Positions 2,864 through 60,602 of a DNA stretch of 64,000 nt are shown piece by piece. Under the pieces are notes generated by a model that saw only the letters and a program-made list of their open reading frames with translations, did no database searches and was not told where the DNA came from. Each line of letters opens with the position of its first letter. Within the stretch, counting starts at the first letter, position 1. Source of the DNA: an uncultured Bacteroidales bacterium (GTDB taxonomy: Bacteria; Bacteroidota; Bacteroidia; Bacteroidales; UBA932); the NCBI GenBank assembly GCA_900318015.1, contig ONJB01000012.1, positions 36,943-100,942 on the forward strand. Direction: 5' to 3'. The position numbers and the translations under genes are program-made.

Positions 2864-4429
2864 ATGAAAACAAGATATTTCATCCTGACCGTCCTCGCCG
2901 CCCTGGCTCTTTCTTCCTGCGACAAATTGCTGGATGTGCCTCGTAAGGGCGTCATCGACTACGATACCTACTACAAGACCGACGACGAGATTGAATCGGC
3001 CGGCATCACCATGTACAGCGACGTCCGTGGCTGGTACTACAATGTGATGCTGGTGAAGAACATCATCTCCGACGACTACTTCGCCGGCGGCGCCGCCCAC
3101 GGCGACAACGTGGACATGGACGCCCTGGGCGAATTCGGCTTCAACTCCGAAACCGGCCAGATCGAAGGCTCCTTCACCGGTTACTACGGCCTGATCTACC
3201 ACGCCAACGTGATTATCGGCCACATCGATCCCGCCCAGAGCAAGGCGGCCGCCCAGGCGGTGGCCGAGGCGCATCTGTTCCGCGCCTGGGCCTACTTCGA
3301 GCTCACCACCCTGTGGGGCAACCCGCCGATCGTGGACCACGAACTGGTCCCGTCCGAGTACAAGCAGCCCAACGGTTCCACCGAGGATCTGTGGAAGCTC
3401 ATCGAGGACGACCTCACCTATGCCGTCAATTCCGGCGCCCTGGCCCGGAAGACTTCCCTGAACGACGCCACCACCTGGCGCGTGACCAAGGAATTCGGCC
3501 AGGCCCTCCTGGGCAAGGCCTATCTGTGGATGGCTTGGGAACTGAACGACAAGTCCTACTATAGGAAGTCTGCCGACATGCTGGCCAATGTCATCAACTC
3601 GGGCCTGTACGACCTTTGGACCGCCGGCCCTTACGGTGACATGCGCCACGCCGCCTACAAGATGAACTGCGAAGACCTGTTCGAGAGCATCCGCGTGAAC
3701 GACCTGGACAACCAGTTCGACAACTTCGACTTCTACGGTGCCATGGTGAGCTGGCGCAGCTCCGGTTCCGAGATGACCATCCCGGCCGATGTGTGCTGCA
3801 CCGGCGGCTGGGGCTTCATGGTCCCGACCGAGGATCTGCTGGCCACGTTCGAGCGCTACGAGGGCAAGGACAGCTACCGTCGTACCCAGACCCTGAAGAC
3901 TTATGACGAGCTCAAGGCCATGGGTGTGGTCTGGAACATGCCTACCCTCTCCACCGGCATCTTCAACTGGAAGGGCCGCTTCATGGCCGACGAAATCGCC
4001 TACTACGCCATGGTGAACACCAAGAACCCGCTGTGGATGCGTTTCGCCGAGGTGCTCCTGCTGGGTGCCGAAGCCAGCTTCCAGGCCGGTGATTCCGCCA
4101 CCGCCCTGCAGTATGTGAATCGCGTGCGCACCCGCGCCCAGCTCGCTCCGCTCGCTTCCGTCGACCTGGAGACCATCAAGACCGAAAAGCGTCTGGAACT
4201 CTGCGGCGAAGGCCAGCGTTTCCAGGACCTCCTCCGCTGGGGTGATGCCGAAGCCCGTCTGAAGGACATGGGCAACACCTATCCCAAGATGGATCCCAAC
4301 GGCGCTGTGACTTACGTCCCCACCGGCCGTAGCGTCTATGGCTTCAAGAAGGGTAAGCACGAGCATCTCCCTTATCCTTTCACGGAGACCATGCTGAATG
4401 AAAACGTCATTCAGAATCCCGGTTATTGA
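2864..4429 (+). CDS. SusD/RagB-family glycan-binding lipoprotein
   Basis: Surface lipoprotein that caps the SusC transporter and presents oligosaccharides to it. The N-terminus MKTRYFILTVLAALALSSC is a lipoprotein signal with the lipidated cysteine at residue 19. The 521-residue length, the TPR-like helical N-terminal half (LFRAWAYFELTTLWG) and the C-terminal EKRLELCGEGQRFQDLLRW stretch are standard for RagB/SusD. It starts 12 bases after the SusC stop, so both are on one transcript. Nothing is odd about the gene. Substrate is unknown. Confidence 0.96.
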   Translation: MKTRYFILTVLAALALSSCDKLLDVPRKGVIDYDTYYKTDDEIESAGITMYSDVRGWYYNVMLVKNIISDDYFAGGAAHGDNVDMDALGEFGFNSETGQIEGSFTGYYGLIYHANVIIGHIDPAQSKAAAQAVAEAHLFRAWAYFELTTLWGNPPIVDHELVPSEYKQPNGSTEDLWKLIEDDLTYAVNSGALARKTSLNDATTWRVTKEFGQALLGKAYLWMAWELNDKSYYRKSADMLANVINSGLYDLWTAGPYGDMRHAAYKMNCEDLFESIRVNDLDNQFDNFDFYGAMVSWRSSGSEMTIPADVCCTGGWGFMVPTEDLLATFERYEGKDSYRRTQTLKTYDELKAMGVVWNMPTLSTGIFNWKGRFMADEIAYYAMVNTKNPLWMRFAEVLLLGAEASFQAGDSATALQYVNRVRTRAQLAPLASVDLETIKTEKRLELCGEGQRFQDLLRWGDAEARLKDMGNTYPKMDPNGAVTYVPTGRSVYGFKKGKHEHLPYPFTETMLNENVIQNPGY

Positions 4430-43681: not shown

Positions 43682-47160
<3,479 letters not shown>

Positions 47161-47684: not shown

Positions 47685-47883
47685 ACAATATTTCTGCATA
47701 AACCTTGCCACCCTGTCTTTTTTCGTGCGGAAGCCGGCACGCACCTTGCCCCGATGCCATCCCGAATGCCCTGTGACAATGGATTGCGCCAGCCGTCCTC
47801 CTGCCTCCCTTCCCCGCAACCCGCTTATCACCCTTCCCCGCTGCCATTCGCTACCCTTCCCCGCTGCCCACCCCCGCCACACA

Positions 47884-48041
47884 CCCAACCCGAAATTCGC
47901 AGAGCATGTCAATGTGCCCCTGGGGACGTTGGAATGCCTATTTCGATGCTCTGCCAGCCCAAATCGCCGGGCGGAGCATTGCGATGTGCCATTGATGGCC
48001 ACGCAAAGGTTTTTGCGATGCTCCGCGAATTTCGGGTTGGG
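47884..48041. repeat. double-hairpin repeat element, copy A (3' of the Y1 transposase)
   Basis: A 158-bp element bounded by a perfect 17-bp inverted repeat (CCCAACCCGAAATTCGC / its complement). Inside are two perfect 9-bp stems: GCAGAGCAT (47899) with ATGCTCTGC (47946), and GCGGAGCAT (47971) with ATGCTCCGC (48018). The whole can fold as an outer stem with two arms. It starts about 200 bases after the lipoprotein promoter; 47687-47883 holds nothing else I can identify. Confidence 0.9.
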
Positions 48042-48127
48042 CCCATGGAGGGCAGAAAACTACGAGTTGGGCCCATGGAAAGGTAGACAGGCTCGGGTTG
48101 GGTCTATGGGACAGGCTCGAGCTGGAC
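48036..48127 (+). repeat. degenerate 30-31-bp tandem repeat, about three units
   Basis: GTTGGG(C/T)C(C/T)ATGG recurs at 48036, 48066 and 48097, with shared ACAGGCTCG tails in the last two units. It runs from the end of repeat copy A to the stop codon of the transposase gene. Confidence 0.7.
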
Positions 48128-49093
48128 CTAGATCAGGTCTTTGACTTCATCATACACCAGGCCGCACAGGCGGACGATCTGTTTGATGGAACTATTGTAG
48201 CGGCCGCGAAGCGTGCGGGCCAGCCGAAACCGCTGGGCCGTATTGAGCCCTTTGACACTTTTGGCTCCGAACAGCTCCAGGCAGACTTCGTTTTTGTGCT
48301 GGCGCATTTCCTGCATGGGAATGGACAACAAGGAAATCGAACCGCCGCGGGAGTCCACGTCCTCCTCCCGGGTAATGGACAGAAAGTAATTGAAACCCTT
48401 GCAGGTCTTGAAGATTCGCTCCACGATTTCGTAAGCCACATACTCGCCGGGAAAGACGAGTGCCCCGACCATTCGGGGGCCATGGGAGGCCATCGCATCC
48501 TTCCGGGTGCGCAGGGCTTGCCGGTGCTGGACGATGCCCATCGGGCCTGCTGCTACCATAGTGTCCATCCATCGCGGCGAGCTCCAGTGACCGGGCCTCT
48601 TGAAATAGAGCGGACCGCTGGACCAGGGATAGTCGAGCGCGTTGAACATGATGCCGCCCACTGGAGCGTTCTTCACGGTGTAGCAAATGACGGTCTTCAG
48701 GTAAAAGTCGTCTTCCACCGGCTGGTGCCGGATGGGGACCCCGTCCAGCTTGTTGCTCTCGTGATGCGTGATGGAAATATACCACGAGGTCTGGCGGACA
48801 TATTCGTGCATGAACCGGTTGCACTCCTCGAAGGTCCCATACAGAATGAAGTGCAAATGCGTGTCCATCAAGGAGAAAGCCAGGATGACCACGTTGTGGC
48901 CTTGCACGACGACGAAGACACGGTTCATCCCCGCGATGAAGTCCTCGTCGTTTTCGAACATGGCATCGACAGCATTCCCGTCCGTGGAGAAATGCCAGCA
49001 GTTCTTGATTCTGATTTTCTGTCCCTTGACGAACGGGACGTTGAGCCCGAGATCGGCTTCGATCTGCGCGAGCAGTTTTTGGTCCAACTTCAT
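48128..49093 (-). CDS. REP-associated tyrosine (Y1/IS200-like) transposase
   Basis: Single-strand DNA transposase-like protein of 321 residues. The HUH metal motif is HLH at residues 79-81 in MDTHLHFILYG. A catalytic Tyr is expected in DDFYLKTVICYTVKNAP (Tyr131 or Tyr138). Such proteins mobilise or maintain short palindromic repeats and lack insertion-sequence ends of their own. It is about twice the length of enterobacterial RAYTs, with an extra C-terminal basic region (AQRFRLARTLRGRYNSSIKQIV). It lies exactly between repeat copies A (86 bases away) and B (118 bases away), its likely substrates. Confidence 0.85.
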   Translation of the reverse strand: MKLDQKLLAQIEADLGLNVPFVKGQKIRIKNCWHFSTDGNAVDAMFENDEDFIAGMNRVFVVVQGHNVVILAFSLMDTHLHFILYGTFEECNRFMHEYVRQTSWYISITHHESNKLDGVPIRHQPVEDDFYLKTVICYTVKNAPVGGIMFNALDYPWSSGPLYFKRPGHWSSPRWMDTMVAAGPMGIVQHRQALRTRKDAMASHGPRMVGALVFPGEYVAYEIVERIFKTCKGFNYFLSITREEDVDSRGGSISLLSIPMQEMRQHKNEVCLELFGAKSVKGLNTAQRFRLARTLRGRYNSSIKQIVRLCGLVYDEVKDLI

Positions 49094-49211
49094 CTTCGTA
49101 TCCGGCGCCGCTGATGGCTGCTCTTCCGCAAAGATAGGTCAAACCCTGTTCTTTTGCAACCTATCCGGGTCGAACCTTGTCACGTTCTGGCTTTTTTCGG
49201 TAAAGGACCCT

Positions 49212-49365
49212 CAACCCGAAATTCGCAGAGCATATCAATGATCCCCTGAAGCCCCTGTACGACCAATTCCGATGCTCTGCCAGCCCAAATTGTCGGGCGG
49301 AGCATCGCGATGTGCCATAGGAGCATGTGGGAAGGGTGCAGCGATGCTCCGCGAATTTCGGGATG
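49212..49365. repeat. double-hairpin repeat element, copy B (5' of the Y1 transposase)
   Basis: Same architecture as copy A. The outer inverted repeat CAACCCGAAATTCGC pairs with GCGAATTTCGGGATG (one mismatch). Inner stems are GCAGAGCAT (49225)/ATGCTCTGC (49272) and GCGGAGCAT (49297)/ATGCTCCGC (49344). Stems are conserved while loops differ from copy A. The rest of the 49094-49522 gap is the ior promoter region and otherwise empty. Confidence 0.9.
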
Positions 49366-49459
49366 GGCGAGGGACGTGATTGCCGGGCGGTGGGGTATGC
49401 GGCTACTGGTGGCGGGGGAGCGTGACGGCGGGCAGGTGGGCGGGTTTGTCGCTCGGAGT

Positions 49460-60446: not shown

Positions 60447-60602
60447 TCAACCCGAAATTCGCAGAGCATCCGCATGCGCCCCTGACGCCTCTGGGAGGTA
60501 CATCCCGATGCTTTGCCCGCCAAAATTGTCGCGCGGAGCATCTCAATGTGCCACCTAGGCCCCTGCAACGGGGGTGGCGATGCTTCGCGATTTTCGGGTT
60601 GA
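60447..60602. repeat. double-hairpin repeat element, solo copy C
   Basis: Third copy of the element that flanks the Y1 transposase. Outer repeat TCAACCCGAAATTCGC pairs with GCGATTTTCGGGTTGA; inner arms GCAGAGCAT...ATGCTTTGC and GCGGAGCAT...ATGCTTCGC are retained with changes. No transposase nearby. It occupies most of the 60301-60866 gap. Confidence 0.85.

Follow-up and report, generated by a model that had tools for sequence, protein, structure and literature searches.

The window, i.e., the whole stretch of 64,000 nucleotides analysed here, corresponds to C21:36943-100942 of genome G000, a 3.2-Mb assembly in 106 contigs that is 92.5% complete. It contains a gene for a RAYT-like transposase which, as the first-pass annotation had claimed, lies between two repeated elements of about 155 bp; both measure 154 bp and they flank positions 48128-49093. 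The neighbouring open reading frames are two that we take to be metH and iorA and one of 161 aa. A third copy of the element is found on its own between an ORF of 187 aa and one of 454 aa, the latter presumably a tyrosine recombinase. The features are:

47713..49450, no strand assigned: segment absent from the sister species G195, which has 34 nt instead (boundaries approximate)
47886..48039, plus strand: four-arm element copy a, 154 bp, downstream of the gene
48128..49093, minus strand: RAYT-like HUH/Y1 transposase gene, 321 aa, recognised from the ORF, its invariant residues and AlphaFold2/Foldseek
49212..49365, plus strand: four-arm element copy b, 154 bp, upstream of the gene and in the same orientation as copy a
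60448..60601, plus strand: four-arm element copy c, solo and intergenic, with an ortholog in the sister species G195

The interval from copy a to the gene end (48028-48130) holds three to four degenerating copies of CGGGTTGGGCCCATGG, about 24–31 bp apart, which repeat the 3' end of the element together with its right flank. A stretch of 28–31 bp inside the metH-like ORF (window positions 46563-46593) recurs with 96–97% identity at six other places in G195 and is another short dispersed repeat.

The element is built according to the plan outer arm, 9-mer, 38 nt, 9-mer', middle palindrome, 9-mer, 38 nt, 9-mer', outer arm'. Aligned over 157 nt, copies a and b have an identity of 79.6%. Copy a has CAACCCGAAATTCGC / GCGAATTTCGGGTTG as its outer inverted repeat, which in copy b carries one mismatch at the right end; the inner 9-mers pair in the manner originally proposed, as GCAGAGCAT/ATGCTCTGC and GCGGAGCAT/ATGCTCCGC. 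When up to three mismatches are allowed, the 19-mer CCCGAAATTCGCAGAGCAT is matched six times in the window, compared to 0.02 matches expected. Folding the copies as DNA, a check that the first-pass annotation had put forward, gives z-scores of -7.0 for copy a, -3.1 for copy b and -6.3 for the other strand of copy a.

The element reads as two tandem stem-loop modules with a period of 72 nt, each consisting of a 9-bp stem and a 38-nt loop, which are closed by an outer inverted repeat of 13–15 bp and joined by the short middle palindrome. Alternatively, the four arms can pair to give a long outer stem and an inner hairpin. Arm positions that split two against two favour nested pairing (1-4, 2-3) at 12 loci, side-by-side pairing (1-2, 3-4) at 5 and neither at 6; away from the arm edges the figures are 8, 5 and 5, respectively. 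The two loops of an element are alike in direct orientation (46 of 49 elements above the null) and, to a lesser degree, as reverse complements (41 of 49), and this resemblance is a further reason to read the element as a tandem of two modules. A half-size version of 82 nt, with a single module and matching outer arms, occurs at locus L064 (G063:C2, 1501-1582). No tandem array is present in the region, and no Rfam family matched at its gathering score; MIR1512 (27.6 vs 79 bits) and L19_leader (19.4 vs 36 bits) came up below threshold and are taken as chance.

The HLH motif that had led to the assignment as a REP-associated-type transposase occupies residues 79-81 of the 321-aa protein. With limits read by us, the HUH core (H79, H81, Y138) extends over about residues 30-165 and a C-terminal extension over about residues 205-321. 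The columns invariant over 53 aligned sequences are D51, H79, H81, Y138, Y155, W157 and Q305, which fits a predicted HUH pair and one catalytic tyrosine. Two tyrosines, 131 and 138, had been proposed: Y138 is invariant throughout (7/7 family members of G000, 12/12 sequences of the ortholog alignment and 53/53 of the wider set), whereas Y131 is so solely in the ortholog alignment of 12 sequences.

Pfam gave no match for the window protein, and the NCBIfam model REP_Tyr_transpos (NF047646) stayed below threshold, with 13.4 bits against a cut-off of 80 (E 0.053); the Pfam family Y1_Tnp matches two of the seven G000 family members, at best with 4.2e-5. In a search of the PDB, a profile of the seven members placed 4er8 (TnpA_REP), the structure of a RAYT bound to a REP hairpin, first (E 0.017), and the ortholog profile found no match. 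The AlphaFold2 model computed from the 53-sequence alignment (pLDDT 89, pTM 0.76) replaced an earlier, weak one from 12 sequences (pLDDT 67). Foldseek again ranks 4er8 highest for it (E 2.8e-4, TM by target 0.62), with no other match at E<=0.001, in agreement with the REP-associated type; the weak model had the same top match (E 4.6e-3). The ISDra2 and IS608 transposases come lower in the list, below some unrelated proteins such as Thg1. About 115 C-terminal residues extend past the core and are mostly helical in the AlphaFold2 model; no helix-turn-helix (HTH) match to this extension was found in Pfam.

Six other loci of G000 encode relatives of the protein with 24–31% identity, and since the best of them is only 31% identical, the window gene is not a multicopy insertion sequence. 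A profile search of G000 yields eight matches. The family match at G000:C86:41334-42272 reads through a TGA stop codon; it is possibly a decaying copy, or a match running past the ORF. At E<=1e-5, the seven-row profile finds matches in 63 of the 73 genomes examined from the genus to which the window belongs, its own included, and weak ones in 7 of 47 genomes of other genera; they reach 17 in one genome, fragments possibly counted in. Close orthologs (E<=1e-40) are present in 33 of 200 genus genomes, with one to three matches each. The relatives of the window protein (best 80 of 102 used) are 49–82% identical to it. Those with names come from Bacteroidales/Bacteroidia MAGs, many of them from rumen and other animal gut samples, and include Candidatus Cryptobacteroides onthequi and Candidatus Cacconaster scatequi; the genus of the window is probably Cryptobacteroides-like. 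The gene adjoins iorA also at L084, L139 and L140, and in G001 a RAYT relative lies about 1.75 kb from iorA. Among 61 genomes searched, own included, 21 others of the genus have iorA, and none of these shows a match to the window RAYT in the iorA flanks covered, of up to 1.5 kb; the position of the gene is thus not fixed over the genus.

The association between repeats and family genes recurs in other genomes. For 77 of 80 orthologs both flanks were in the data, and 65 of these have a four-arm motif within 450 bp at threshold 10, leaving 12 without it in the 450-nt flanks. Counted by flank, the motif is present in 93 of 154; the corresponding figures are 3 of 140 for stretches lying 1 kb more distant and 0 of 154 for shuffles. 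Threshold 6 leaves 44 of 154 flanks (33 of 77 loci) and 2 of the 140 distal stretches, and again no shuffle (0 of 154). A repeat pair shared between the two flanks (>=40 bits) accompanies 44 of the 77 orthologs, compared to 3 of 300 controls, with no pair at 40 bits in the other 33. Related repeats in other genomes, on which the first-pass annotation had made its reading depend, thus exist, paired at 44 of 77 orthologs and with at least one element at 65. Among the 44 pairs, 26 are at least 130 nt long and 9 shorter than 50 nt; the two copies have direct orientation in 36 pairs and inverted orientation in 8.

In a set of 36 family loci (7 from G000 and 29 from other genomes), which has some genes in common with the ortholog set, flank-shared repeats of at least 40 bits were found at 19, as against 4 of 200 mismatched-flank controls; four of the seven G000 genes have such a pair. 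The repeat pairs at further family members of these genomes are often of another kind, e.g., two 98-nt double short-loop hairpins at L027 and an inverted pair of 116–138 nt at L028. The L028 pair (G000:C36), at about 1096-1297 and 2430-2575, flanks a family transposase and contains matches at 1104 and 2521 to GGGG[AT][CG]A[CG], which the accessible text of PMC6006769 gives as the TIRYT consensus. The family transposases at L042 and L053 have on either side arrays in which hairpin units (ACATGTGG...CCACATGT or the like) are repeated many times.

Near orthologs, the long paired repeats mostly follow the plan of the window element, with loops of about 38 nt and a middle of about 16 nt. The 9-mer, GCAGAGCAT in the window, is elsewhere for example CCTGCCCG, CCTTCCCA, GGAGTCCAA or ACGGATTT, and GTTGAGCAC, ACCTGCACC and ATTGTCCA are found at further orthologs; altogether, 21 loci have 19 distinct consensus stems. 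Between species the 9-mer changes in all four arms together, with the spacing kept. A strict four-arm definition holds for 26 of 48 elements and for 0 of 960 shuffles, and a graded score for 49 of 58 elements and 0 of 580 shuffles; the 58 consist of 48 from 24 loci and 10 from G000, G195, G199 and G134 and are not independent, several sharing a stem or a genome. The distances from arm 1 to arm 3 and from arm 2 to arm 4 are 71–73 nt in the 49 elements (72 nt in 32 and 31 of them, respectively).

Covariation of the arms was examined, as had been suggested, in an ungapped alignment of 17 rows and 160 columns, drawn from the 30 equal-spacing elements scoring <=15, one per locus; the rows w_b, w_c and G195b were dropped and two L119 copies cut at the edge were left out. 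The window-type family supplies five of the 17 rows, and another stem is common to four more (L134, L136, L139, L140). When the 12,246 column pairs are ranked by Watson-Crick covariation, the first 19 are all arm-arm or middle-middle pairs. Pairing cells amount to 82–84% in the arms (43–45% shuffled), 60% in the middle (46% shuffled) and 71% in the outer arms (64% shuffled), and loop pairs are at the null (38–41%). Pairing of the arms arises partly by construction, since complementarity served to locate them and only elements of equal spacing were taken; the middle and the outer arms were not used in the selection, and the shuffles were searched in the same way as the real elements. A Mantel test of stem against transposase distance gave r 0.06, which 1442 of 5000 permutations reach, and graded co-evolution of stem and protein is therefore not shown. 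Near-equal stems occur only in the six closest protein pairs (<20% difference).

With the 162 nt around copy a as DNA query, six full copies of the element are found in G000, three on C21 and one each on C51, C67 and C92. The repeats thus recur beyond the three copies of the window, to which the first-pass annotation had considered that they might be confined. The six are 68–100% identical to the query (68–80% for those other than a), and four of them are solo, away from the gene. The families of other orthologs occupy at least 5 (L159), 3 (L109), 3 (L096), 9 (L163), 2 (L123), 6 (L134), 2 (L143) and 3 (L140) places in their own genomes, counts that were read by hand from the best 13–30 candidates per genome and include partial copies. 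Some flanking pairs are fresh: the two copies are 100% identical at L109 (156 nt) and L159 (145 nt) and 97% at L096 and L163.

Over nine families that have solo copies, 7 of 32 such copies are within 12 kb of the gene or flanking pair, compared to about 0.3 expected with uniform placing, which suggests local spread. This hand tally covers the window and L027 families of G000, L109, L096 in G249 and in G254 (measured there from the flanking pair), L159, L163, L134 and L140; not counted are the families of L026, L028 and L030 and, in G249, copies of the L134/L140 type. The L027 family has 10 copies in G000, five of which cluster within 8 kb around their gene (G000:C92:229118-236878), an arrangement that also suggests local spread.

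By DNA similarity, the window element is present in 5 of 200 genus genomes (at most four candidates per genome scored). This count looked like a refutation at first; elements of the same plan, with different stems, were then recognised in the flanks of the orthologs. The four genomes other than G000 that have the window-type element contain no ortholog at E<=1e-40 (best 130 bits), and genomes with an ortholog carry elements of other stem letters. The expectation that copies of the repeat would track the transposase was thus not borne out.

The sister species G195, whose genome is 98% complete, is 88–90% identical to G000 over about 19 kb. The alignment breaks off at about 47712 and picks up again at about 49451, with 34 nt in G195 replacing about 1.74 kb. 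Since the best RAYT relatives in G195 reach at most 130 bits with the ortholog profile, a close ortholog is missing there. Three full copies of the element are found in G195, orthologous to the C51 and C92 copies and to copy c of G000; these solo copies are therefore old and predate the split of the two species. Without the gene unit G195 keeps solo copies, so the presence of the element does not track that of the gene. The C67 copy of G000 has no counterpart among the three full copies of G195, and, this site aside, no new insertion of the window element is seen in the comparison of the two genomes. In the 34-nt scar there is a 10-nt run that also occurs in the 3' ends of the element; in a post hoc count, this was reached by 36 of 5000 shuffled scars and by 2 of 573 region tiles, these two possibly including the scar and copy c. 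At the more distant L084 the gene stands beside iorA in the same divergent arrangement, and on these few genomes a loss in G195 is therefore simpler than a gain in G000. At L286 (G195:C15:4000-12000), two copies of another double hairpin (CCGTAGGTCC...GGACCTACGGGC; 3170-3249 and 3912-3992) adjoin the shared C51-type four-arm element. They are not at the orthologous place in G000, and other repeats of such kind therefore differ between the two genomes.

The closest known relatives are the RAYT/TnpA_REP proteins with their REPINs in E. coli, Pseudomonas and Stenotrophomonas. The window system has in common with them the HUH/Y1 fold (4er8 being the best structural match), single genes that do not copy themselves and have each their own repeat family, and flanking palindromic repeats of that family with more copies in the genome. 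Genomes with repeats and without the gene also occur in E. coli, according to the accessible text of PMC8049555. There are also differences. A GT[AG]G guide at the foot of arm 1 is found in 0 of 49 elements of the window-type plan, the unit has 154 nt with 38-nt loops instead of the 20–40 bp of REPs, and the 2–10 copies compare with 69–235 REPINs per E. coli genome (PMC8049555, same part). The window protein in addition has its long C-terminal extension, and family matches number up to 17 per genome, fragments possibly included. Lacking the guide, low in copy number and below the thresholds of the curated models, the system falls outside classical TnpA_REP. We infer that it works like a RAYT-REPIN pair, with mobilisation of the repeat.

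In the text available of Quentin et al. 2018 (PMC6006769), the Bacteroidetes TnpA_REP subclass 2.6, equated there with Bertels group 5, is described as flanked by atypical structures with copies elsewhere. The window system shares its occurrence in Bacteroidetes, the atypical flanking structures without GT[AG]G and the copies elsewhere, but differs in protein length (321 aa compared to a median of 179 aa) and, judged by eye, in its motifs, with DTHLH, no W at the expected place and YTVKNAP in place of NH[LIV]H, WQ and YIH[QN]NP. Subclass 2.6 is the nearest published Bacteroidetes group found. De Nocera et al. 2013 (PMC3733652) report, in the part accessible, RAYT-like genes flanked by long repeats and called TIRtrons, and the same part of PMC6006769 equates TIRYT/TIRtron mostly with subclass 2.1. 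Here, the similarities are longer RAYT-like proteins with a C-terminal extension, long flanking repeats unrelated to REPs, and several systems per genome with different repeats. The TIRYT extension is described in the accessible literature as a helix-turn-helix of the DnaA_C, HTH_23 or HTH_28 type. The window pair is direct, whereas a TIRtron gene stands between long terminal inverted repeats, and a four-arm internal structure is absent from the TIRtron description in that part of PMC3733652.

In the RAYT, REPIN and Bacteroidetes TnpA_REP literature, no description of the four-arm element was found among the matches listed, judged by title or the opening of the abstract and with few subscription papers covered. 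The suggestion that the system is undescribed may accordingly stand for the element but not for its kind, which the atypical Bacteroidetes TnpA_REP structures and the TIRtrons precede in the available texts of PMC6006769 and PMC3733652. The system is thus not wholly new, since atypical structures were noted in 2018; the low-copy four-arm pairing is built differently from known ones.

What does the pairing of gene and element represent? Probably, the protein is a RAYT/TnpA_REP-like HUH single-strand nuclease and the element its cognate, non-autonomous and REPIN-like partner. The element would fold in single-stranded DNA, such as that of the lagging strand; the transposase would read the fold together with the lineage-specific stem and cut close to the foot, which is conserved (in the window family as CAACCCGAAAWTC). 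Only rarely would the element be copied or moved, and the gene would keep its position, as PMC8049555 states for REPINs. Because the stem letters turn over fast, each lineage would end with its own stem address. The REPIN-like system of the first-pass annotation is partly supported: the transposase is tied to structured repeats, which recur in the genome and, altered, beside orthologs in other species, but their presence does not track the gene.

Very unlikely, in our view, is an insertion sequence of the IS200/IS605 type, in which the 154-bp elements are the ends, the unit moves as a whole and the solo copies are remnants of ends. Such elements have the same HUH/Y1 fold class, with the IS608 and ISDra2 transposases among the Foldseek matches, and structured ends; tnpB stands beside tnpA in only some of their members, and among the ORFs next to the window gene none was noticed that looks like tnpB. 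The presence of the unit in G000 and its absence from G195 would also suit an insertion sequence. G000, however, contains no multicopy, near-identical units, its best second match to the gene being the one at 31%, and the 33 of 200 genomes with matches at E<=1e-40 have one to three each. The gene beside iorA at L084, L139 and L140 points to long residence. Moreover, the segment absent from G195 reaches about 170 and 85 nt past the elements, so that its ends are not theirs, and the 10-nt run common to scar and element ends would suit a deletion. Least credible of the explanations considered is that the elements are cis-acting host structures (a terminator, attenuator or cruciform regulator) whose nearness to the gene reflects regulation and not mobility. 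It would account for elements that usually lie within about 400 bp of the gene and for the three solo copies at orthologous sites in the sister species, and covarying stems would suit RNA as well; yet four of the six G000 copies are away from the gene, elements stand on both sides of it and Rfam is silent at the gathering score, and fast turnover of stems within a fixed geometry would better suit a protein-DNA recognition pair.

Somewhat easier to entertain, and still rather unlikely, is a decayed system, with the transposase domesticated for another task on single-stranded DNA and the repeats left as fossils. The divergence of the other G000 copies from copy a (68–80% identity), the age of the three solos relative to the sister split and the low copy number are what such decay would leave behind. 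Against it stand the fresh pairs elsewhere (100% at L109 and L159, 97% at L096 and L163), catalytic residues kept in 53 of 53 sequences and four arms that are kept matching.

What is known about how RAYTs select their repeats, and about the joint change of the two, comes largely from the REPs of proteobacteria, which have GT[AG]G guides (PMC8266576). The ortholog series described here keeps the fold and spacing of the repeat and replaces its stem, which makes reading of the fold and reading of the sequence separable by experiment. The genus is rich in family members (up to 17 matches in a genome), often with different repeats, and the pair of sister species offers a natural case in which the gene is absent and repeats are kept. 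As a tentative extension, more speculative than the reading itself and rather less likely than not, these proteins may form a RAYT clade in which DNA is recognised by its geometry together with an exchangeable stem: the 72-nt four-arm scaffold would be kept, the stems reset per lineage in all four arms, and each transposase would have its own address. If this were true, and with many divergent family members per genome, a single genus would contain a very large set of naturally occurring HUH enzymes that read hairpins, each separate from the others.
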